NCBI GenBank assembly: GCA_028277395.1
Contig: JANQGJ010000059.1
Coordinates: 52,592-116,591 of the forward strand
Direction: 5' to 3'
Length of the DNA stretch: 64,000 nucleotides
DNA from: Bacteroidales bacterium
GTDB lineage: Bacteria > Bacteroidota > Bacteroidia > Bacteroidales > F082
The notes under the pieces are model-generated. The model saw only the letters and a list, made by a program, of their open reading frames with translations. It ran no database searches and was not told the DNA's origin. Both the position numbers and the translations under genes were made by a program. Below are positions 35,662-51,694 of the stretch, in pieces (position 1 is the stretch's first letter; the number at the start of each line of letters is the position of its first letter).

Positions 35662-37455
35662 TCAACTTTTCTGCAAATCAATGTATAAAGCATTGAGTGC
35701 AAACACCAATCCATACATCTCCTCAAAATACCACAAAGAAGCAAAATACAACCCAATCGGCTCTGAAGGCAGATCGGAATCCTTGTATTTTTCAATCTGA
35801 TCAAGCAAATATTTTGTTCCTGAGCCAATACACTTAGGATATTTGCTCAATCGCAGTGCCCTTAATGCCAGCGAAGTCTCCTCAATACTTGATCTCACTC
35901 CTACGTTCGCTCCCCATCCTCCATCATCGTTTTGAGCTGATTCAAGGAAATTTATACCAGATTCTATCTGCTTTTCAAGGTCAGGGATACCATGTTTTCT
36001 GGCTTCCAGCAATCCAATCAACACCAGTGATGTTCCATAAACCGGGTTCTGGTGATTTTTATCATTTTCATTTCCAAACCACAGTGGCAGCCATGAACCA
36101 TCTGTGCGTTGCTTCTTTTGCAGGAATAATATGGATTTTTTAACTGACAGCTTTATTTTTCCTGAAAGTTTTGAGCTCACCTGCTCCTTCCAGGTTAACA
36201 TTGCCCTCATAGCATGTGAGGTTATATCAGCACAACTGGCATCAAAAGGAAGTTTTCCCCAGCCTTTACAGAATGTGGGGAAACCACCATCAGAATTCTG
36301 ATTGTTTATGAGCCAATTTATGCCCTGAGACACTCTGTCGATGTCAACATCAACATATTTTGAAAGCCTGTGAATTGCCAGCAATGCTCCCGAGGTATCA
36401 TCACCATCAGGCACTCCGCCTTCTGTATCAATCCATGCCCAGCCTCCTGGTTTGCTTTTTGTAAACGGATGCGTTTTCCTGTGCTGTTGTTGAAGCAACC
36501 AGTTATAAACGCCTGACTTCCAACTATTATCCAATCCGATAAACGTTTCATCACTTAAGGCATTTATTGACAGAGTTGTAACCCATGTCGTAAGACTAGT
36601 GTCTATGGGCCAGCTTCCATCAGGGCGTATTGACATTTGTAAAAATCTTTCTGCCTTATTGCACACAATATTGTCTTTCTGTCCTGCACCAACCAGGGTC
36701 ATCAGCACGAACCCTGTCAATGGGGTGGCCTCCAGAAACCCTCCGTTTGCAGGCTGTTTTTCTGCTAATATCTTCAATACTTTGGGAATAACCAGTTTAT
36801 TGATCATTCTGATGAGTAATCCCGGTTTATGGTTATGTTGTTTCGCCAGCCCCATAGATATTAATGCCGGGATTGCGTAACTTACTACCGACAGGTTCAG
36901 CCATTTAAATAACCTGTCAGGGAATACAGCAAACTGAAACGGAAGCTGTGGGACATATTTCCAGCCATCAGGTCCTAATCGTCCGGACAGAGCACACATT
37001 GCAAGTATGGGAACAGAGAAAGTCCTGTCAGCACTATAATGCCTTAATATTGCATTGCTTATATCTTCAGGTTCAAGTCCACCGAGTTTTTTTGTTAACC
37101 ACTGCTCTACCCTATTGATCAAATGCATATGATCCTGATCTTCTTTAACTATAGATAAAGCTGACCAGCACAATAGTGTTGTACTCAGGTTACTTGAACT
37201 TACTATGGTATCTCCAAATCCGCCATCTGCATTTACATTATCCTTTAACCATTTCAGTCCTTTATCAATTATCTCACTGTTTCCTTCCGGTTCATAACTA
37301 TGTAAACCAAACACTGCAACTGCAGTGGAAAGCGCACTGCTTGACAAACGTCCTTCCCATATTCCTTTACTATTACGTTTTGCAAGCAACTTCTGTTCCA
37401 GCAGACTATGGGCTTCTTTTATATCATTAATTAACTTCTCTTCCATTTTCATCAA
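35662..37455 (-). CDS. Class II terpene cyclase (squalene-hopene cyclase-like)
   Basis: This 597-residue protein has the double alpha/alpha-barrel of the squalene-hopene cyclase family. The protonating acid motif DGDDT is at 350-354, close to the DxDD of hopene cyclase. QW-type repeats are seen at ADGGFGDT (77), PDGSW (278), NSDGGF (388), TDGSWLPLWFG (451) and NDDGGWGA (509). FDASCADITSHAM near 404-416 matches the conserved cyclase segment. It is a little shorter than hopene cyclases. The DxDD identifies protonation-initiated cyclisation; the substrate (squalene, or a free or diphosphorylated polyprenyl chain) is unknown. It is the last gene of the five-gene operon, overlapping the previous one by 4 nt. 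Confidence 0.9.
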   Translation of the reverse strand: MMKMEEKLINDIKEAHSLLEQKLLAKRNSKGIWEGRLSSSALSTAVAVFGLHSYEPEGNSEIIDKGLKWLKDNVNADGGFGDTIVSSSNLSTTLLCWSALSIVKEDQDHMHLINRVEQWLTKKLGGLEPEDISNAILRHYSADRTFSVPILAMCALSGRLGPDGWKYVPQLPFQFAVFPDRLFKWLNLSVVSYAIPALISMGLAKQHNHKPGLLIRMINKLVIPKVLKILAEKQPANGGFLEATPLTGFVLMTLVGAGQKDNIVCNKAERFLQMSIRPDGSWPIDTSLTTWVTTLSINALSDETFIGLDNSWKSGVYNWLLQQQHRKTHPFTKSKPGGWAWIDTEGGVPDGDDTSGALLAIHRLSKYVDVDIDRVSQGINWLINNQNSDGGFPTFCKGWGKLPFDASCADITSHAMRAMLTWKEQVSSKLSGKIKLSVKKSILFLQKKQRTDGSWLPLWFGNENDKNHQNPVYGTSLVLIGLLEARKHGIPDLEKQIESGINFLESAQNDDGGWGANVGVRSSIEETSLALRALRLSKYPKCIGSGTKYLLDQIEKYKDSDLPSEPIGLYFASLWYFEEMYGLVFALNALYIDLQKS

Positions 37456-38423
37456 TTAATAAGTCCAAGTGTGAGCAATGCATAGAACGTATATTCACAA
37501 TCTGGTTTCATATCAGCTATACTTCCGAAAAATCCACCACTTTTGTCCCAGTGAAGGTTTATAAATTCAGTTGTTTTTGTAGCATATGATTCCATTGGTT
37601 CTTTCGCCATACTCATGGCAAACAATGCTGTTGCCGTACTTAATATGTCAGCCATTGGCAGATTTTCTCCTATGGTAAATCCTCCCTGCCTGTTGTACAT
37701 TCTTTTCAGCCAGTCAACTGATGAACGGACATGTTTATTTCCCTGTGCCAACTGCATAATTATGCCGGCCGATGCTGCAGATGTTACTCCACTTTTCGAT
37801 GAGATGTCATTTACATATGATCCGTCTTCGAGTTTTAGACCTGATAAACACCTGAATATATTATCATTTTTACCGGCAATACCCATATCTTCATATAAAC
37901 TCCAAACAAGAAATGTGGCATAGATATTTCCAACCGGCATATTCTTTTTCAGCTGGTTATAGCTGCCATCGACTGAGCGGTATTCTTCGATTATTTCAAA
38001 CAGATCAGAATGCACTTTCTTTACTTTTCTTGCAACCTTAGATCTGACAAATGATACTGCCGGTTCTAAGCCTGAAAACAGCCCGGTAAGTGCCTTACTT
38101 TTTTGTTTCAGTTCCAGAACCTCAATTAGAACAGCACATTGAATGATACTTACAGCATGTACCAGATCTATTTTTTGAGATTCCTTCCATCGCTTTACAG
38201 CTTTCTTTTGCATATCTGTATTAACCTCAACATCGAATACATACGCCAAGGAATATCCAAATACTGAATAATAAGGATCAGCATTTCCTGCTCTGTCGGT
38301 AAACCCACCTTCCTTATGGTAACAGGTTTTCAGAAACTCCCTGATCATATTCACGGCTTCATTACTGAGCTTTTTCCGTGATTTCTCTAATGCTTTTATC
38401 ATCTCATCACTTATTCCGGTCAT
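37452..38423 (-). CDS. Prenyltransferase-like alpha/alpha-barrel protein
   Basis: A 323-residue protein built of repeats like those of terpene cyclases and protein-prenyltransferase beta subunits (EGGFTDRAGNADPYYSVFG, EDGSYVND, RQGGFTIG, KSGGFFGS, and PDCEYTFYALLTLGL near the end). It is half the length of a full cyclase, corresponding to one barrel, and has no DxDD. No complete zinc-ligand set of farnesyltransferase is obvious. It precedes the full cyclase with a 4-nt overlap, so the two are made together and may form a complex or act in sequence. A catalytic role is unproven. Confidence 0.8.
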   Translation of the reverse strand: MTGISDEMIKALEKSRKKLSNEAVNMIREFLKTCYHKEGGFTDRAGNADPYYSVFGYSLAYVFDVEVNTDMQKKAVKRWKESQKIDLVHAVSIIQCAVLIEVLELKQKSKALTGLFSGLEPAVSFVRSKVARKVKKVHSDLFEIIEEYRSVDGSYNQLKKNMPVGNIYATFLVWSLYEDMGIAGKNDNIFRCLSGLKLEDGSYVNDISSKSGVTSAASAGIIMQLAQGNKHVRSSVDWLKRMYNRQGGFTIGENLPMADILSTATALFAMSMAKEPMESYATKTTEFINLHWDKSGGFFGSIADMKPDCEYTFYALLTLGLIN

Positions 38424-38434
38424 AGAATTTACTT

Positions 38435-40042
38435 TTAACTCAGAATACGGTTTGCCAGCCTGTAAAGCAGTACTTTTACATTAACATTCTCCAAACCAAC
38501 AAGTACCTCAAGGGTTTGCTGTTTATAATATTCCAGCATTGCCCCTGCTTCATCAATGGCTCTCTGCTCCTTTGCCCAGCTTATAAATTCAGCAACGGAA
38601 TTCTTCTCACCTTTCTGAATTGCGATCATGTACTCATTAGTTTTTGCGGGCATTTTTTCATTGAGAATGGCAGTTATCAGTGATGGATGGTATGCGTTCA
38701 GATCACTGGAATTTTTTTCATCACTGAAATCTTCAAGGTCATCTTTTATCTGATAGGCGATACCCAATGTCTTACTGTAATCACCAAGGATATCCATTAA
38801 TTGCTGACCAGCACCACCAATTACAGCCCCAAATTTCAGAGCTACTTCAAATGCAGGCGATGTCTTATCACTAAATATTTTCAATACTTTTTCAGTGGAA
38901 AGCACCGATGACTTGTTTCTCCATAGCAGCTCTTCACCCTGTCCAAGACAAAGGTCACTGTGTCCTTTTGTCGCAATACTTAATAACTTTGTGATTTTTT
39001 CATCACCGGCTCCTGATCCTGCTATCATCTGATAACCATATCCTGTTAACAGATCTCCCGTATTCAATGCAACCGGTATATCATATTCTTCATGAAGTGT
39101 TGGCTTTCCATATCGCACTGAATCATTATCAGCAATATCATCGTGTACAAGCGATGCTTTGTGAAAACACTCAACTGAAACAGCCAGTTTTCGAATTGTA
39201 TCAGAATTAAGTTGCTTATCACTGCACAATGCCTGACACAACGAAACCATTATCAGTGGTCTCCATCGCTTCCCTCCTTTCGTCAACCAGTTATTGGCAA
39301 TATTTACTGACTCTACACTGTTTCCAAAAAGCTCTTCAAGGCTTGTTAGTTTAAACCACGACTGAATTTTGCTTCTCGTATTATCAAGATTAACCCAGCC
39401 ATTCCACTGAAAATCGTTCTTAACCGGTAATATTTCTTTCAGCCATTCCAGGTCAACCACAGAGTTCTTACAATCGTAGTTGAACAAAGGAATTGCAAGT
39501 GACGGAACTGCTTCTTTAACGGTGAGAGGAAACGATCGTTCGAAAGATTCCAGGCAACCAACACCAATTACGCATTCTACCTGCCCTGATGACAACAATA
39601 GCTTAACCGCTGTTGTACCTTCACTAACAATAACATGATAACCAAGCTTCTCAGCCTGGTTTTTTATTTCACCAATACTGCACAACCCGCATTCCTCACA
39701 TATAAGTCCCAGTTCATCGGTTTCAGCAGGGCAGTCAGTCATATTTTTCATACACTGTGGTAATAGCAGTATTCTACGATTATAGGGAATCCCCGATACA
39801 ACCGGCTTCCAGGCATAATTATTAATTATTACAGCCAGTAATTTTTGATATTTCTCATAATCATGATGCTCCTTAATGAATTCTGCAGATAGCGATAACA
39901 CATCTTCTTTCAGTAAAGGAGGTGTAATATTCTTTTTCGATAGAAATATATCAATCAGAAACCGCATCATTCTGAGTTCCTCCGACTTTTGAGGAACATT
40001 ATTTTCTATCTTCAGATCCTTTATTTCAGTATTTAAAAACAT
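38435..40042 (-). CDS. DUF116 - polyprenyl diphosphate synthase fusion
   Basis: This 535-residue protein joins two domains. Residues about 50-205 match DUF116: LLPQCMKN at 93-100, C104, and the CEECGLC cluster at 115-121, with further cysteines at 157, 163 and 191. Residues about 235-535 are a trans-isoprenyl diphosphate synthase with GGKRWRP (256-262), the first aspartate-rich motif DDIAD (301-305), and the second DDLED (434-438, with Glu in the fourth place). The cysteine set suggests an iron-sulfur or zinc site in the DUF116 part. It should build the polyprenyl chain for the neighbouring cyclase. The fusion is unusual; chain length is not readable by eye. Confidence 0.88.
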   Translation of the reverse strand: MFLNTEIKDLKIENNVPQKSEELRMMRFLIDIFLSKKNITPPLLKEDVLSLSAEFIKEHHDYEKYQKLLAVIINNYAWKPVVSGIPYNRRILLLPQCMKNMTDCPAETDELGLICEECGLCSIGEIKNQAEKLGYHVIVSEGTTAVKLLLSSGQVECVIGVGCLESFERSFPLTVKEAVPSLAIPLFNYDCKNSVVDLEWLKEILPVKNDFQWNGWVNLDNTRSKIQSWFKLTSLEELFGNSVESVNIANNWLTKGGKRWRPLIMVSLCQALCSDKQLNSDTIRKLAVSVECFHKASLVHDDIADNDSVRYGKPTLHEEYDIPVALNTGDLLTGYGYQMIAGSGAGDEKITKLLSIATKGHSDLCLGQGEELLWRNKSSVLSTEKVLKIFSDKTSPAFEVALKFGAVIGGAGQQLMDILGDYSKTLGIAYQIKDDLEDFSDEKNSSDLNAYHPSLITAILNEKMPAKTNEYMIAIQKGEKNSVAEFISWAKEQRAIDEAGAMLEYYKQQTLEVLVGLENVNVKVLLYRLANRILS

Positions 40043-40060
40043 TTAATTCAAAAGTTAAAT

Positions 40061-41254
40061 TTAACCGTATGCACCAAATCCAAAAAACCAGTTTTTCTTA
40101 GCAATACGGTACACAAGGCTTTTTTCCGGAATTTCCTTCCCCTCAATATTATGACCCGGGCAAACTCTCATCTTCGACAATTCTTCATAGGCTGATTGCC
40201 TTCCTGATGTATCTTTAGCATTTAAGTCAACAAGGATTTCCTTCAATATTTCCGGGTCCTCAAGTAGTAAACAACCACGTGTACTGTCTGTTATCCGCGT
40301 TCGCATTTCTCTGATAAAATCAGAATTCTCCATAACAGATATCAAATCTTTTCCATCCCCGGCATTATCACAGGCAAACTGAATGGGCGGACAAAATTCT
40401 ATTGCTCCCAAAGGGTTGATATGATGACTCATTCCAATTGCTCCGGGACACATTGCCCGTCCCTTTTCATCCCAGTAAGTATCAATTATAACGATCGGTG
40501 CTTTTCGGCGGATATTAACCATAAATTCACGCAGTCCGAGTATCTCTTTTTCAGATAGAGCAAGATCTGTAACAGGTTGTGAGCCTACAGGACGATAAAT
40601 ATAATACCAAAGGTAGTGCACTCCCCTGGAAATACAGCTGTTTACAAACTCCTCGCTTACCAGGTCATTGTAATTTGATTTACAAACACTTGTAGCAACT
40701 CCCGTTATCAGTTTATTGTTAACTGCAGCATCGATTCCGGTCATTGTTCGGTCAAAAACACGCTTTGCACCTCTACGTACATCACTCACTGTTTCAAGCC
40801 CTTCAACACTTATCAATGGCGAAACATTACCCATTTTTCTTAATTCAGCAGCTATTTTATCGGTCAACAGACTTCCATTTGTAAAAAGCTGAAAATAGCA
40901 GTCGGGATGCTCATGAATAACATCCAGTAAAGGTTCATACATTAGTGGCTCACCACCAAGAAGTCCGAAAAAATAAGATCCTTTGGCTTTACTGGAATTA
41001 ATAATGTTATTCAGGGTTTCTGGAGACATTCCATTTGAGTCATTGTCAATGGTGATCCAGCAACCCTGGCAGTTATAATTACACCGGTTAGTAACTGATA
41101 TCATCAGGAAAGCCGGAAACAACTCACCTTTTTTAAGTCGTTTTTTAAATAAAGTTATGGCACGCATTCCTTTCCAGCCCATGTTGTAACTAAATTTTAA
41201 CAACAACCTGAGATCCACACTGGTAATCATTCGCTTAGTTAGTTGCAGTATCAT
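40061..41254 (-). CDS. Radical SAM enzyme of the terpenoid operon
   Basis: A 397-residue protein. The radical SAM cluster motif is C58-x3-C62-x2-C65 (within NRCNYNCQGC) and LLGGEPLM is the GGE SAM-binding segment. The C-terminal third has five more cysteines in AMCPGA, EFCPP, FACDN, RGCLL and RVCPGH, with INPLGAIEFCPP recalling SPASM/twitch domains that hold extra 4Fe-4S clusters. It does not show the HpnH motif pattern of adenosylhopane synthesis. A ferredoxin gene lies 15 bases upstream and can supply electrons. The likely role is radical modification of a terpenoid or of a partner protein; this is inference. Confidence 0.88.
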   Translation of the reverse strand: MILQLTKRMITSVDLRLLLKFSYNMGWKGMRAITLFKKRLKKGELFPAFLMISVTNRCNYNCQGCWITIDNDSNGMSPETLNNIINSSKAKGSYFFGLLGGEPLMYEPLLDVIHEHPDCYFQLFTNGSLLTDKIAAELRKMGNVSPLISVEGLETVSDVRRGAKRVFDRTMTGIDAAVNNKLITGVATSVCKSNYNDLVSEEFVNSCISRGVHYLWYYIYRPVGSQPVTDLALSEKEILGLREFMVNIRRKAPIVIIDTYWDEKGRAMCPGAIGMSHHINPLGAIEFCPPIQFACDNAGDGKDLISVMENSDFIREMRTRITDSTRGCLLLEDPEILKEILVDLNAKDTSGRQSAYEELSKMRVCPGHNIEGKEIPEKSLVYRIAKKNWFFGFGAYG

Positions 41255-41269
41255 AAACTCATACCATTA

Positions 41270-42118
41270 TCAACAACATGAACTATCTTTATTTTCACCG
41301 GTATCACCACAACATTCTGATTTGTTGTCCTTTTTAGCCGAGCTATCGTCTGAACAGCAATCAGGATCATCAGTATCGGCGCAGCAACTTCTTCTTTCTT
41401 CTTCTGCAATTTTCAACTGCTCTGTTTTAAGTAAAGAAGCACTAAAAGATTTCCGCCGCTGACTCAGCACCTGGTAAACATCTTCATTCTGTATTTTGTC
41501 CAGAATGGAATCACCATCTGCCACAACTACAACATCATTCTCTCCATTGATAATGCTTTCATGATGTTTGGGAAATATAATAGCCTGCTCGGGACATGCA
41601 CGTGCACAGGCAGGACAAAGGTCCTTACAGTTTGAAGGGTTGGTAACCAGCACTTTCCCGTCCGGATCTTTATCATAAACCCCGAATAAACAGAAGTTCA
41701 TACATTTCATACATGAGGTACATCTGTTATAATCAATTACAGGGTACCAGGGTTTCCAGTCTTCTTTATATTCCACAGTTGTAATCGAATCCTTACCTGT
41801 CTCAAGTTTTGATAGCAGGTTTTCATCTTCCAGAAGTTTATCTGCATTGTAATATTCCATTTCAGTACCACAGGTGCAGAAAATAGCATAGTCCAACAGG
41901 CATTGCATTGCCCTTGGCTGACAGCCTATAATTACTGATCTGTCGCTGTTTTTGATATCTACCAGATCCTGGGGATTTTTTGGAATACATCCGCACATAT
42001 CTTCAATGTATGTGTATCCTGTATTCCGTTCCTCCAGCTTATTTTTTAGTGCAGTTACTGTTTCACGGCTTACTTTGCCTCCACGTTCGCAACCACAAAC
42101 AAATATATTTTGATTCAT
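41270..42118 (-). CDS. Dicluster ferredoxin with HdrA-like N-terminus and Cys-pair tail
   Basis: A 282-residue protein and the first gene of the terpenoid operon. Residues about 1-85 carry scattered cysteines (8, 10, 42, 44, 66, 73, 81, 83), recalling the N-terminal part of HdrA-type proteins (FVCGCERGGKVS, IGCQPRAMQCLLDYA). Residues 128-180 form two 4Fe-4S motifs, C133-x2-C136-x2-C139-x3-C143 and C164-x3-C168-x2-C171-x3-C175. The tail has four Cys-Cys pairs (245-246, 254-255, 269-270, 281-282) in an acidic, lysine-containing linker, ending on the last pair. It is presumably the electron donor for the radical SAM enzyme; the tail function is unknown. Confidence 0.88.
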   Translation of the reverse strand: MNQNIFVCGCERGGKVSRETVTALKNKLEERNTGYTYIEDMCGCIPKNPQDLVDIKNSDRSVIIGCQPRAMQCLLDYAIFCTCGTEMEYYNADKLLEDENLLSKLETGKDSITTVEYKEDWKPWYPVIDYNRCTSCMKCMNFCLFGVYDKDPDGKVLVTNPSNCKDLCPACARACPEQAIIFPKHHESIINGENDVVVVADGDSILDKIQNEDVYQVLSQRRKSFSASLLKTEQLKIAEEERRSCCADTDDPDCCSDDSSAKKDNKSECCGDTGENKDSSCC

Positions 42119-47128: not shown

Positions 47129-50100
47129 TTAACTCTCATTACTTTTTGTTCGCGACAACAATCCAAGAATACCGGTAATAGCTGCAATACCACCACCAAC
47201 AACAATAAACAGTTGATTGAGGTTATCAAGAAAATCCTGATTTGCCATTGCAATGAAAACAAACAACCCGGATATTATCAGTATCATTGTAAACCTATAT
47301 CCCTGCCAGGTACCTGTTTCCTTACCAATTTTAATCTCCAGCGCAGATGTATCTTTTTTACTCAACCTTGATATAACATATTTCCTGAAACTAATATTCA
47401 TTAGCCTGATCCTGTCACATTTCTTGATTAAAATACCCTTTTCAAGTAAACCATTAATAGCCTTTGCATTTTTTTGATTCATGATCAGATCCTCGGCAAG
47501 ATCATAAAGAACATATTTTTCTTCATCCGAGCAGGAATTAAAGACATCCTCATAATAGCTGTCTGCAAGCGATACAATTTTGGAAATTATCATTTCTTCA
47601 GGGTATTCCATTTTTCTTTCCGCACAATACGTTTCATAATATTCATGCAGTGAATTTTCAAACTGCAACAGGTAATCACTTGCATGTAATTCAGAATCAA
47701 TAAGCTCCGTGTAAGTCATTTTCTTCTTTTCACGATAGCAGAAACTTTCCTCATCTTTCCAGGAAAAATCATATCTGAGTGGCAGATAGTTAACAATGGT
47801 AATTGCTGCCAGGCGTTTGAACTCTGTCAGATTATTAACATATTGTGCTATGTTCATGTCCTTCAGGGTTTCCTTTTCGTATGAATTTGAGGAGTTTTTT
47901 ATGATATTTTGATAATAATCGATAATAATGTTTGGATGTACCTGTGAAAGCATTATCAACCTGACGTCATTACGGTTTACCAGATTCCAGAGAACACCTA
48001 ATTTTTGTTTAAAGATTTCAGGATTATCATATCTCCAGTCGAAGTTTTCTATTAATACAGTGGTGGTTTCATTAAGGATTTCATTTTTACCCTTTTCACT
48101 ATCAATAATGTCGATAATAGTATTTGACTGTTTCTTGTTGTCAATCCCCTTCTTAATTATTTCCAGTGAGCTATTAATAATTTCTTCACGTGACCAGTCC
48201 AGGTAAATATCCTTAAACATATCGTGAATAATTGCCATTGTTTCATCTTTAGCGCTGAGCCTTACAACAAAAATATCTTTATTTGCGAGCATTTGCTGTC
48301 GTATTTTCTCACCAAATGATTCCCGTGAATAGCTTTGTATGATATCAACATTATATATATTTCGAATTCCAAACCTGACGAGGTAGTAAAGAATATACAA
48401 AATGAAGATTATCAAAGTCCAGAAAATTATGTTAGCAATTATTCCTTTACCACCAGTGAATGAAATACCGTGAAATGGCAATAAAAAATTCAGCTTATTA
48501 ACGTGACCAACAACCCTGTTATAAGAAAGAGTTTTGAAATCAGTAGTTTCAGTAGCAGTTAAATATTTCATCACCAGTGAATCATTGCCATATTTATACC
48601 AATTTATTTTGCTGTCTTTCTTTGCACCATAGGCAAGGTATTTGTTTTCAACAATGTCTTCATCGTAATATGGTCTGAAAAAAACAACCAGTGAATCAAA
48701 GATTGAATGCTTATCCGGGTAGTTCTCCCTGGTAACCGAAGGAATGGCATCATCAGAAAACTGTAGCCTGTTTACGAAATTAACATAAACACCTTTATCT
48801 TTTCTATTGTTGAATACTTTTGTGGCATAATCAGATCTGTTTATCTGATTGCTGTAGTAGTTATTCCAGTAGGTGTTCCTTTTTTCCCTTTTCTTCATCA
48901 GGTCAACCTGGTTATGACGTAATCTTAATTCAGATTCGGTATTATAGGCTATTTCATAAAATTTCAGAGTAGGTAAAATTGAGAACAAGAATGTTAGGGC
49001 AATTAAAAATAACACATAATCCCTTATAAATGAAGAGTTAAAATATATTGAGTGATTTTTATGTCTTTTTTCGAATATGACATATGAAATCTCAAGAAAT
49101 ATAACTAACAATATTTGAAAACTGATTATCCCCAGCCAGTCTAAACGTTCCAACTTTGTAATGATACCGATGTTTAAAATTGCCAGGACAATAAAATTTA
49201 TTATTGTAAACCTCTTTCGATGTTTTTCTTTTACTTCATTATGATTAAGAACCCTGTATGAGAATGTAAAGAGGATAATTTCCAGGGAAAAGACTAAAAT
49301 AACCGATTGGAGGCTGTTGGTAAATGAAAGCATAATAGCAGTTACAATAGCAACTATTACATATACCTTTAGTAGATACATATAATGACTACTCAGATGG
49401 ATCATTGGTCTTGTAATCTTCATAATCAGGTTCTTCGAAAGTTTCCATTTCAACCTGTTCTCCATAATCAGAAGCACAATTACCTGTATAAAAATGAATA
49501 GAAAGAAAATACTCAACATTATCAGGGTAAGGGTAAAAACCTGGGCATGAAATGATGTCTCAGCCTTTCTGTTATGAAATGTTACAAGAAACAGTGGAAG
49601 TTTATCAATTGGTCTGATATAGGCCCTGTGAGGTTTATTATAATAATCAACATAAACCGGCTTACTTGTACGGTTGTAAATGGCAGATTTTAAATATTCG
49701 CTCTCATTACATTCGCTGATGAAATTCTCCATCATATTCCTGTTTTTATTACTGTGAAACCACACTTTTCCAGTTTCATCAATAATGCAAAAACCGTAAT
49801 CTTTGGGTATAATGGGATCAATTAGCGAATAGAATTTTGAAGATAATGCAATCACCTCGTTTTCAGAAGTATTACTAGTGGTTGACATGCCAACCTTGTG
49901 ATTTCCCGAAGCTAATGACAGAATTGATTCCATCCTGAACTTTTTTGTACTATCACCAGGAAGGAACCATTCATCTTTATACTTAAAATAATCACGGTGT
50001 TTAAGGTTACTTAATGGTCCGTCTTCTTTGAGGGTTGTTAAATAAGCAGATTGTGTACCTTTTTCATTTATCCAGAAAAGAAAATCAACAAATGGGTAGT

Positions 50101-51415
50101 GTTTGGGGGATGCTGTTTTTGTGGAATCATATCTTAAAATATCAGCCACAACCGGACGAACAGGATATTTAGCTTCGTCATTAAATTCAAATGAAGAATG
50201 TATTGAATCAAAATAAGTTAACTGATTAATTGCATTGTTTATTTCTTTGTTTAAAGTGCTATAAACTGAATTATTAAATTTAAGGAGATAATTATCTGTA
50301 TTATGCAACTTAACTGAATTTTGTGAAGCAAACAGAAAAAACAGGGTTATTACAGATGATCCAAATAATATGGATAGTGCTGAATTTGTGATAATAGAGG
50401 TATTTAAGTGTTCAATCTTTGAAATCACTTTCAATTTAATAAGTGGTAATCCAAGTAGAATTAAAATTAACAGTAAGGACAACAGGATTATAACCCACGG
50501 ACTAATGCTTTTGCTCATGGCCTTAAAATTTGAGGTTTCCATAAGCCCGCATAAATACCATCTTTGATCTCCTACCTTTACCGGTTTTAAAAAGAGTTTA
50601 TATTTCTTGTTTGAAATGGTTATTTCTGAAAACTCACCCGAATAAAGATAACCTGTTACCGGATCATTATCAGATGGCAGTAATAACCTGTCATTTTGAA
50701 TAATTTCTTCCTCCCGTTCTTTTCCTTTGCTATTCGATACAAGGTCGTCAGTTTCTTCACTGATTCCTAAAAATAAGTCGGAATTCAGGGTTGAAAAAAT
50801 GATTGATGTATCATAAACAATAAACATGTCGTCAAATACATCTTTCCTTAACAACCCTGGAACAAGATTAATATATTTTGTACGTACATATACCGAATCT
50901 TTATCACCAAAAGCCTCAACTGTATCTAATGATACTGCTTTGAAATAGTAGTATGTATCCGGGTCTAATTTACTTAATATATTACTCTCACCTTCGTTTG
51001 TTTTAAATGAAAAAGTATCACCTGAATCAATTCTGAATCCATATACTTCCAGGTTTTTATTTAGATAACTACCGATAGTTGAAAAATCCTTTTTTACAAT
51101 TGATTTCTCTATAATACTATTTTTCTGTTCAGTCAGTGTTTTACTATTTTTTTTATCATTATTTTCATTTTGATCTTCAACAAACTGAATATTTGACCCA
51201 AGTTGATTAGCATTTGACTGCAAACTAATCAACTTTGAGTCAATATTATCCCCGATCTGATCCAGTACCCTGAATTGTGTTGAGATAATGCTTTGCTCCT
51301 TTGATTTGATGTAATGATTCAGGTAAAAATAATAGGATATAAACAGAATTGTCAATGCTCCGACTACTATCCAAAAGTTAGTTGATACACTTAGTGATTT
51401 TAGTTTCCACGACAT
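47129..51415 (-). CDS. Large membrane protein: two cache-like sensor domains plus degenerate ATPase/winged helix
   Basis: About 1428 residues, started at MSWKLKSLSVSTNFWIVV, which has a TM segment right after the N-terminus; the 36-residue upstream extension looks untranslated. Layout: TM1, a cache-like extracytoplasmic domain (about 30-310), two TMs, a second cache-like domain (about 370-610; VDFLFWINEKGTQSAYLTTL, GFCIIDETGKVWFHSN), about seven TMs, another extracytoplasmic loop, a TM, then a cytoplasmic part. That part has a Walker-B-like strand TTTVLIENFDWRYDNP but no Walker A, and then a winged helix (SDEEKYVLYDLAEDL, NGLLEKGILIKK). It ends with two more TMs. I do not know a named family; it looks like a sensor with an inactive STAND-type NTPase. 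Confidence 0.7.
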   Translation of the reverse strand: MSWKLKSLSVSTNFWIVVGALTILFISYYFYLNHYIKSKEQSIISTQFRVLDQIGDNIDSKLISLQSNANQLGSNIQFVEDQNENNDKKNSKTLTEQKNSIIEKSIVKKDFSTIGSYLNKNLEVYGFRIDSGDTFSFKTNEGESNILSKLDPDTYYYFKAVSLDTVEAFGDKDSVYVRTKYINLVPGLLRKDVFDDMFIVYDTSIIFSTLNSDLFLGISEETDDLVSNSKGKEREEEIIQNDRLLLPSDNDPVTGYLYSGEFSEITISNKKYKLFLKPVKVGDQRWYLCGLMETSNFKAMSKSISPWVIILLSLLLILILLGLPLIKLKVISKIEHLNTSIITNSALSILFGSSVITLFFLFASQNSVKLHNTDNYLLKFNNSVYSTLNKEINNAINQLTYFDSIHSSFEFNDEAKYPVRPVVADILRYDSTKTASPKHYPFVDFLFWINEKGTQSAYLTTLKEDGPLSNLKHRDYFKYKDEWFLPGDSTKKFRMESILSLASGNHKVGMSTTSNTSENEVIALSSKFYSLIDPIIPKDYGFCIIDETGKVWFHSNKNRNMMENFISECNESEYLKSAIYNRTSKPVYVDYYNKPHRAYIRPIDKLPLFLVTFHNRKAETSFHAQVFTLTLIMLSIFFLFIFIQVIVLLIMENRLKWKLSKNLIMKITRPMIHLSSHYMYLLKVYVIVAIVTAIMLSFTNSLQSVILVFSLEIILFTFSYRVLNHNEVKEKHRKRFTIINFIVLAILNIGIITKLERLDWLGIISFQILLVIFLEISYVIFEKRHKNHSIYFNSSFIRDYVLFLIALTFLFSILPTLKFYEIAYNTESELRLRHNQVDLMKKREKRNTYWNNYYSNQINRSDYATKVFNNRKDKGVYVNFVNRLQFSDDAIPSVTRENYPDKHSIFDSLVVFFRPYYDEDIVENKYLAYGAKKDSKINWYKYGNDSLVMKYLTATETTDFKTLSYNRVVGHVNKLNFLLPFHGISFTGGKGIIANIIFWTLIIFILYILYYLVRFGIRNIYNVDIIQSYSRESFGEKIRQQMLANKDIFVVRLSAKDETMAIIHDMFKDIYLDWSREEIINSSLEIIKKGIDNKKQSNTIIDIIDSEKGKNEILNETTTVLIENFDWRYDNPEIFKQKLGVLWNLVNRNDVRLIMLSQVHPNIIIDYYQNIIKNSSNSYEKETLKDMNIAQYVNNLTEFKRLAAITIVNYLPLRYDFSWKDEESFCYREKKKMTYTELIDSELHASDYLLQFENSLHEYYETYCAERKMEYPEEMIISKIVSLADSYYEDVFNSCSDEEKYVLYDLAEDLIMNQKNAKAINGLLEKGILIKKCDRIRLMNISFRKYVISRLSKKDTSALEIKIGKETGTWQGYRFTMILIISGLFVFIAMANQDFLDNLNQLFIVVGGGIAAITGILGLLSRTKSNES

Positions 51416-51694
51416 GATGTTGAGTTTAATTTTGTTGTTTTTATAGTTGTCTGCCCGGTAGTTACTCCGGATTATATCGTTGTAAAATTGTTGTTTTGCA
51501 CCTGTCACACGTCTACATACCAACTGCTACATGTAGTGATCATTAAAAGCTTGTAATTCAGAAAATGGTTTTGGCTGGTATATTTAAATTAACTGCTTTG
51601 GGAGTCAAATATAATAAAGATTTCAAAAAAGGAAAGAAAATTGGCAGATTTCATCCAACTAACTCATTTTTAGAATGTAACTTCATCAGCATAT

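Follow-up and report, generated by a model that had tools for sequence, protein, structure and literature searches.

The described systems closest to the locus reported here are the hopanoid pathway with its squalene-hopene cyclase, the class II cyclases of prenyl diphosphates such as drimenyl diphosphate synthase, the single-domain cyclase MstE, which cyclises prenyl-dihydroxybenzoate, and, for one of the proteins, the beta subunits of the protein prenyltransferases RabGGTase and FTase. To our knowledge, class II cyclases of prenyl diphosphates have not been described with a radical SAM or DUF116 partner. We analysed a locus at positions 35662-42118, minus strand, of a 64,000-nt window (the whole stretch of DNA that was analysed; contig JANQGJ010000059.1, assembly GCA_028277395.1) from a Bacteroidales bacterium of lineage F082. 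Its five genes are transcribed in the order Fd, rSAM, DPS, cycS and cycL, and encode a ferredoxin, a radical SAM enzyme, a fusion of DUF116 with a polyprenyl diphosphate synthase, a prenyltransferase-type barrel protein and a class II terpene cyclase. On balance, we read them as a conserved operon for a polycyclic polyprenoid that is neither hopanoid nor sterol, would be a membrane-type lipid and likely carries a radical modification. No description of the five-gene unit was found in the literature searched (open-licence papers only), where the titles listed for DUF116 included none about terpenoids, and the pathway is most likely undescribed.

Conservation and co-occurrence of the five genes

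Named GTDB genomes were scanned with an alignment of DPS, which gave at least 588 pattern matches, at least 555 of them encoding a relative, and the best 80 were kept. As these 80 loci were chosen by DPS similarity, the counts describe close DPS relatives and not all relatives. All five genes stood together in 38 of the 80 loci, in six named phyla (Bacteroidota 15, Acidobacteriota 7, Verrucomicrobiota 6, Planctomycetota 6, Armatimonadota 1, Kiritimatiellota 1, and two loci unassigned). The order Fd-rSAM-DPS-cycS-cycL was kept on one strand in 35 of these 38 complete loci, and rSAM stood elsewhere in the other three; because the order is kept to this extent, the arrangement is more than chance, and other genomes keep the five genes together as a unit, as the preliminary description of this DNA had proposed to check. 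Where 3.5 kb or more was available on each side (51 loci), all five genes were found in 31 loci. By predicted starts, the median gaps were 73 bases for rSAM-DPS (n = 47), 2 for DPS-cycS (n = 60) and 25.5 for cycS-cycL (n = 44), with outliers of more than 1 kb for the last two pairs. Isolates among the scan matches include Marinifilum flexuosum, Labilibaculum filiforme, Ancylomarina salipaludis and Acanthopleuribacter pedis.

Co-occurrence was determined in two genome samples, 247 genomes from the order of the host (sample 1) and 141 genomes from the class of G004 (the genome with Spartobacteria locus L066; sample 2). cycL was found in 11 genomes of sample 1. With a threshold of 500 bits, rSAM was found in exactly these 11, the next score being 271; the hypergeometric probability of this overlap is 2.4e-19, a value which treats genomes as independent and ignores kinship. 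DUF116 scored over its cut-off in 24 genomes, among which are all 11 with cycL, and its frame in 10 of these 11 had 481-555 residues, the size that the fusion should have (237 residues in the remaining one). cycS was detected at 1e-15 in nine genomes, all among the 11, so that the co-occurrence asked about in the preliminary description was seen for cycL, rSAM and DUF116 in the same 11 genomes and for cycS in nine of them. Sample 2 held cycL in 27 genomes and rSAM in 16, all 16 within the 27 (p = 2.7e-14). All 27 rSAM genomes of both samples carry cycL; rSAM is thus nested in cycL genomes within the two samples, and the nesting is not strict outside them. In 18 genomes, cycL was missing from the DPS locus that had been fetched; 13 of them have a strong cycL elsewhere, and rSAM was found in 9 of the 12 genomes of this set that were searched for it, G001 and G016 among the nine. 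Since its gene order recurs in at least six phyla and it is co-inherited in two genome samples, the operon is not a local curiosity.

Protein families encoded by the operon

Pfam matches were judged against family cut-offs, and NCBIfam equivalog models were used for hopanoid-type enzymes. For counts of invariance, rows shorter than 80% of the model or lacking a suitable start were dropped, which left 27 Fd, 51 rSAM, 80 DPS, 60 cycS and 44 cycL rows, each plus the window; motif counts by regular expression (regex) miss a few rows that alignment counts include.

cycL matches SQHop_cyclase_C with 113.1 bits (cut-off 26.1), reads DGDDT in the window, and has D350, D352 and D353 invariant in 45/45 rows. 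Domain and DxDD motif together place it in the class II terpene cyclase superfamily, in agreement with the preliminary description. Its score is 88.7 bits against the hopene cyclase equivalog TIGR01507 (cut-off 431.1) and 117.4 bits against the general squalene cyclase model (cut-off 322.7), and two cycL relatives gave 93.9 and 94.7 bits against TIGR01507. All seven hopene-type cyclases scored, from five of 18 searched genomes, pass the hopene cut-off, and three genomes (G005, G006 and G017) each hold cycL plus a cyclase over that cut-off. A tree was built from 45 linked cycL, 12 unlinked cycL and 13 hopene-type cyclases (seven of the 13 scored against NCBIfam), leaving out L101-L103, which repeat L106-L108, and the partial L105 and L097. 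cycL and the hopene-type cyclases were split with support 100, on branches of 4.7 and 4.9 changes per column, in what is a quick tree with support from the Shimodaira-Hasegawa-like approximate likelihood ratio test (SH-aLRT) alone, where long branches meet (a warning of the tool). The outside rows of this tree are of hopene type; diterpene, oxidosqualene and drimenyl cyclases were compared by PDB profile search. By sequence, cycL is set apart from the hopene cyclases, outside which it falls on both TIGR01507 score and tree, and its nearest class II relative is not fixed by the tree.

A search of the host genome for SQHop_cyclase_C proteins found cycL and no other. As to a squalene synthase elsewhere, which had been left to be checked, the sole SQS_PSY homologue found in this 95% complete assembly (49.7 bits) sits beside a CrtI-like open reading frame (ORF), and the two look like a carotenoid pair. 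Two other polyprenyl synthases besides DPS were also found. Source annotations of the relatives include prenyltransferase beta subunit, squalene-hopene cyclase (for some cycL) and geranylgeranyl diphosphate synthase. One cycL gene (G398:C138:2373-4022) has a single in-frame TAA, from a broken copy or an assembly error. The control genome of Methanosarcina acetivorans matches both SQHop_cyclase_C and DUF116.

DPS matches DUF116 with 102.2 bits (cut-off 25) and polyprenyl_synt with 148.9 bits (cut-off 27), and both domains occur in 119 of 120 relatives among the matches listed, by a search that favours similar length. The synthase domain carries the two Asp-rich motifs of all-trans polyprenyl diphosphate synthases: the first is present in 81/81 rows, preceded by Ala-Ser in 81 by alignment and 80 by regex, and the three Asp of the second are invariant in 81/81. 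Ala-Ser at -5/-4 before DDxxD without an insert fits products longer than C20, and because DPS has this arrangement, its product chain is predicted to be longer than C20. The AlphaFold2 model of DPS has a predicted local distance difference test (pLDDT) score of 86.5, and the matches listed by structure searches with it were taken up by the synthase part. In the DUF116 part, Cys 97, 104, 115, 118, 121, 163 and 191 are invariant (81/81). An excerpt of PMC5898192 gives DUF116 as a predicted metal-binding protein, and the seven invariant Cys agree with this description. The DUF116 frames over cut-off in the 13 further genomes of the host's order, which are without cycL, have 269-461 residues; neighbourhoods of standalone DUF116 inspected by eye in four genomes showed no telling partner gene.

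cycS matches Prenyltrans with 40.3 bits (cut-off 26.5), and its predicted fold is an alpha-alpha barrel nearest to the beta subunits of protein prenyltransferases. The motif D.DD[TS] is found in 0/61 members of the family examined, the window reading DILST in its place, and D259, L261, S262 and T263 are invariant in 61/61, as is Y311. A profile alignment with RabGGTase beta sets DLLST over DVCYS. The zinc ligands of protein prenyltransferase beta subunits are Asp, Cys and His; D259 is kept in cycS, and L261 and Y311 stand at the other two positions, where the match of Y311 depends on a 21-residue offset between the model and the chain ends. Judged by the modelled fold and this motif, cycS resembles a protein prenyltransferase beta subunit without zinc more closely than a functional cyclase, and the 'short cyclase-like protein' of the preliminary description is corrected in that it has no DxDD.

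rSAM matches Radical_SAM with 58.8 bits (cut-off 29.5), has CX3CX2C in 52/52 rows (regex) and so belongs to the radical SAM superfamily by domain and motif; three further invariant Cys (C269, C288 and C328) follow the core. A PDB sequence search with rSAM gave general relatives only (cytosylglucuronate decarboxylase, SkfB). Against the equivalog model of the adenosylhopane synthase HpnH (TIGR03470), rSAM scores 46.9 bits, far below the cut-off of 225.05. Fd matches Fer4_10 with 32.6 bits (cut-off 25.5), and C8, C10, C42 and C66 are invariant in 28/28 full-length rows; at many loci of other phyla its N-terminal part is a separate ORF.

At five Planctomycete loci (L020, L032, L042, L050 and L076; Phycisphaerae/Sedimentisphaerales), a radical SAM protein of 520-650 residues of the B12-domain type lies directly upstream of DPS, in the place of rSAM. 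That of L042, the one of the five scored, has 87.7 bits against TIGR04013, below cut-off, and a search for rSAM in the five genomes gave no match above 171 bits. Because this B12-type protein fills the slot of rSAM in genomes that gave no such match, a radical step seems to be wanted at these loci too.

Layout of the locus and neighbouring genes

The positions of the genes and motifs are collected in Table 1. The list of ORFs bears out the five minus-strand genes of the preliminary description, which on the starts given there are spaced by 15, 18, 11 and -4 bases. The listed start of cycL is a TTG adjoining an ATG at 37452, and with the ATG start, cycS and cycL overlap by 1 base. The operon is flanked by an aldehyde dehydrogenase gene and a glyoxalase-like gene, so that, as described before, neither a squalene synthase nor a hopanoid gene stands beside it. 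Promoter-like sites were no more numerous than in shuffled sequence, terminator-like sites were about 1 standard deviation higher, and an Rfam scan of the window gave no match.

Table 1. Positions in the window of the five genes, their domains and motifs
Feature	Position	Strand	Basis
Fd, Cys-containing N-terminal part, 2x[4Fe-4S] ferredoxin domain and Cys-rich tail	41270..42118	-	Pfam, invariant Cys
4Fe-4S dicluster domain of Fd, residues 126-176	41591..41743	-	Fer4_10
rSAM, radical SAM enzyme, 397 aa	40061..41254	-	Radical_SAM
CX3CX2C motif of the radical SAM core, reads CNYNCQGC	41060..41083	-	window translation
DPS, DUF116 fused to all-trans polyprenyl diphosphate synthase, 535 aa	38435..40042	-	Pfam
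DUF116 domain of DPS, seven invariant Cys	39428..39844	-	Pfam, alignment
First Asp-rich motif of DPS, DDIAD, Ala-Ser at -5/-4	39128..39142	-	window translation
Second Asp-rich motif of DPS, DDLED	38729..38743	-	window translation
cycS, predicted single alpha-alpha barrel, 323 aa, protein-prenyltransferase-beta-like, without DxDD	37452..38423	-	Pfam Prenyltrans
DILST of cycS, at the place of DxDDT (cyclases) or DxC (protein prenyltransferases)	37635..37649	-	profile alignment with RabGGTase beta
cycL, class II terpene cyclase, 597 aa	35662..37455	-	SQHop_cyclase_C
DGDDT, DxDD proton-donor motif of cycL	36394..36408	-	window translation

Upstream of Fd, loci outside Bacteroidota carry a gene for a CobW-like GTPase (29/80 loci) and a GcvH-like gene (27/80), and a cysteine-desulfurase-like protein is encoded in 20/80 loci, on either strand and at some loci downstream; these three families were confirmed on representatives. 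The lipoyl lysine of the GcvH-like protein is kept in 27/27 rows, and a lipoate-ligase-like (LplA-like) gene is present in five of eight Acidobacteriota loci. None of these genes was found in the 18 Bacteroidota loci, and the host genome has a single, ordinary GcvH match (144 bits). The GcvH-like genes (e.g. L027:5724-6263 and L040:5885-6481) stand beside the CobW-like and desulfurase-like genes and not beside glycine cleavage genes.

Elsewhere in the window, an ORF of 1464 residues at 47129-51523 has many hydrophobic stretches and no Pfam match at 1e-4, a protein of 1149 residues at 42909-46358 matches the Receptor L domain and bears a Por secretion tail, and a protein at 13400-14590 matches hemerythrin-like and PAS_10 domains.

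Proposed pathway, alternatives and relation to known systems

In the pathway we propose, DPS likely builds an all-trans polyprenyl diphosphate, and cycL, to judge from its motif, would protonate the far end of this chain and close rings without squalene. cycS, a barrel of the prenyltransferase type in which other residues stand at two of the three zinc-ligand positions, may hold or hand over the prenyl diphosphate. Fd may feed electrons to rSAM, and perhaps also to an iron-sulfur site in DUF116, and rSAM with Fd would alter the ring product; rSAM is predicted to act on or after the cyclase product because every rSAM genome of the two samples has cycL. The view that chain building, cyclisation and a radical step are joined in one unit, put forward in the preliminary description, is partly supported by the conserved genes, motifs and co-occurrence, and the checks named there did not refute it; it has to be loosened in that rSAM is not obligatory and the reactions are predictions.

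Several observations weigh against this pathway. DPS stands alone in 7 of the 51 loci that had 3.5 kb or more on each side, and five of the 18 DPS genomes searched gave no strong cycL (two of them show short fragments near contig ends). Two of the 11 cycL genomes of sample 1 are without cycS at 1e-15, in assemblies of 700 and 800 contigs. rSAM is missing in 11 of the 27 cycL genomes of sample 2, which also counts against a strict unit, so that the pathway does not always include the radical step; rSAM was also not found in G008, G009 and G011, three of the 12 genomes searched. G001 and G016 have rSAM at about 697 bits and no strong cycL, in assemblies of unstated completeness. The best NCBIfam synthase models for DPS are short-chain ones, all below cut-off, and leave the chain length unsettled. 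An action of rSAM on the terpenoid is suggested by gene linkage, and predictions of the substrate, the chain length, the product and the radical reaction are drawn here from the genes.

A meroterpenoid pathway on the model of MstE, in which cycS moves a prenyl chain to a small non-thiol acceptor, cycL cyclises the bound chain and rSAM modifies the head group, would suit the single barrel of cycS, but we consider it rather unlikely, as the shared families of the 80 loci (identified in part) include no acceptor-making gene and two of the three zinc-ligand positions are changed in all 61 cycS members. Alternatively, the product may be a sulfur-containing or lipoyl-protein-bound terpenoid, for which the GcvH-like, LplA-like, desulfurase-like and CobW-like proteins supply sulfur or a carrier and rSAM forms a C-S bond. 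The frequency of these genes upstream of Fd, the fully kept lipoyl lysine and the LplA-like genes of Acidobacteriota speak for it; because none of this module is found in Bacteroidota loci, the core seems to work without it, the only GcvH of the host is an ordinary one, and the explanation is improbable.

The remaining two alternatives take the genes apart or return them to a known pathway. If rSAM, Fd and DUF116 had a separate job, such as redox regulation or cofactor maturation, the synthase and cyclase alone would make the terpenoid. Such a division would account for the sample 2 genomes with cycL and without rSAM, for G001 and G016, and for the shorter DUF116 frames in 13 genomes of the host's order; it has to face the nearly universal fusion of DUF116 to the synthase among the listed relatives, and the presence of cycL in every rSAM genome of both samples, and we give it a small probability. 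A standard hopanoid pathway, whose squalene-hopene cyclase would have diverged and would draw its substrate from the CrtB-like enzyme encoded elsewhere in the genome, agrees with the annotation of some cycL relatives and with the one SQS_PSY gene. It was rejected, as very unlikely, on the family score, the tree split and the coexistence of cycL with true hopene cyclases in three genomes, and the operon has its own DUF116-fused synthase.

If the proposed operon for a radical-modified polycyclic polyprenoid is real, it would be a third route to bacterial polycyclic lipids, one that needs no squalene and, to judge from its enzymes, no oxygen, and DUF116 would gain a pathway. An old question would also become testable: in an excerpt of PMC10319793, tricyclic terpanes are suggested to derive from the prokaryotic C30 isoprenoid tricyclohexaprenol, and the operon points to organisms in which to look, e.g. 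Marinifilum flexuosum and Acanthopleuribacter pedis. A further reading, which we hold to be unlikely, is that the operon stands for a third class of bacterial polycyclic membrane lipids beside hopanoids and sterols, namely radical-capped, ring-closed polyprenols of the tricyclohexaprenol type made without oxygen or squalene. This would provide a genetic basis in Bacteroidota, Planctomycetota, Verrucomicrobiota and Acidobacteriota for petroleum tricyclic terpanes, of which no living source is known to us.

Compared with the beta subunits of RabGGTase and FTase, cycS has Leu for Cys and Tyr for His at the zinc positions, and no alpha subunit gene was noticed adjoining it. It has the same single-barrel size as the MstE-type single-domain class II cyclases, with a Foldseek match to 6sbb, and differs from them in the lack of D.DD[TS] throughout its family. 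DPS is set off from other all-trans polyprenyl diphosphate synthases by the fused DUF116 with its seven invariant Cys. cycL shares DxDD, whose chemistry would act on a linear prenyl diphosphate, with the class II cyclases that use such substrates, drimenyl diphosphate synthase among them (PDB matches 7xq4 and 8zg0), although its sequence similarity to them is low, at about 50 bits. With squalene-hopene cyclase, its best PDB sequence match, cycL has the class II fold and DxDDT in common, whereas the operon differs from the hopanoid pathway by a radical SAM enzyme that is not of the HpnH type and by a dedicated polyprenyl synthase in place of squalene synthase.

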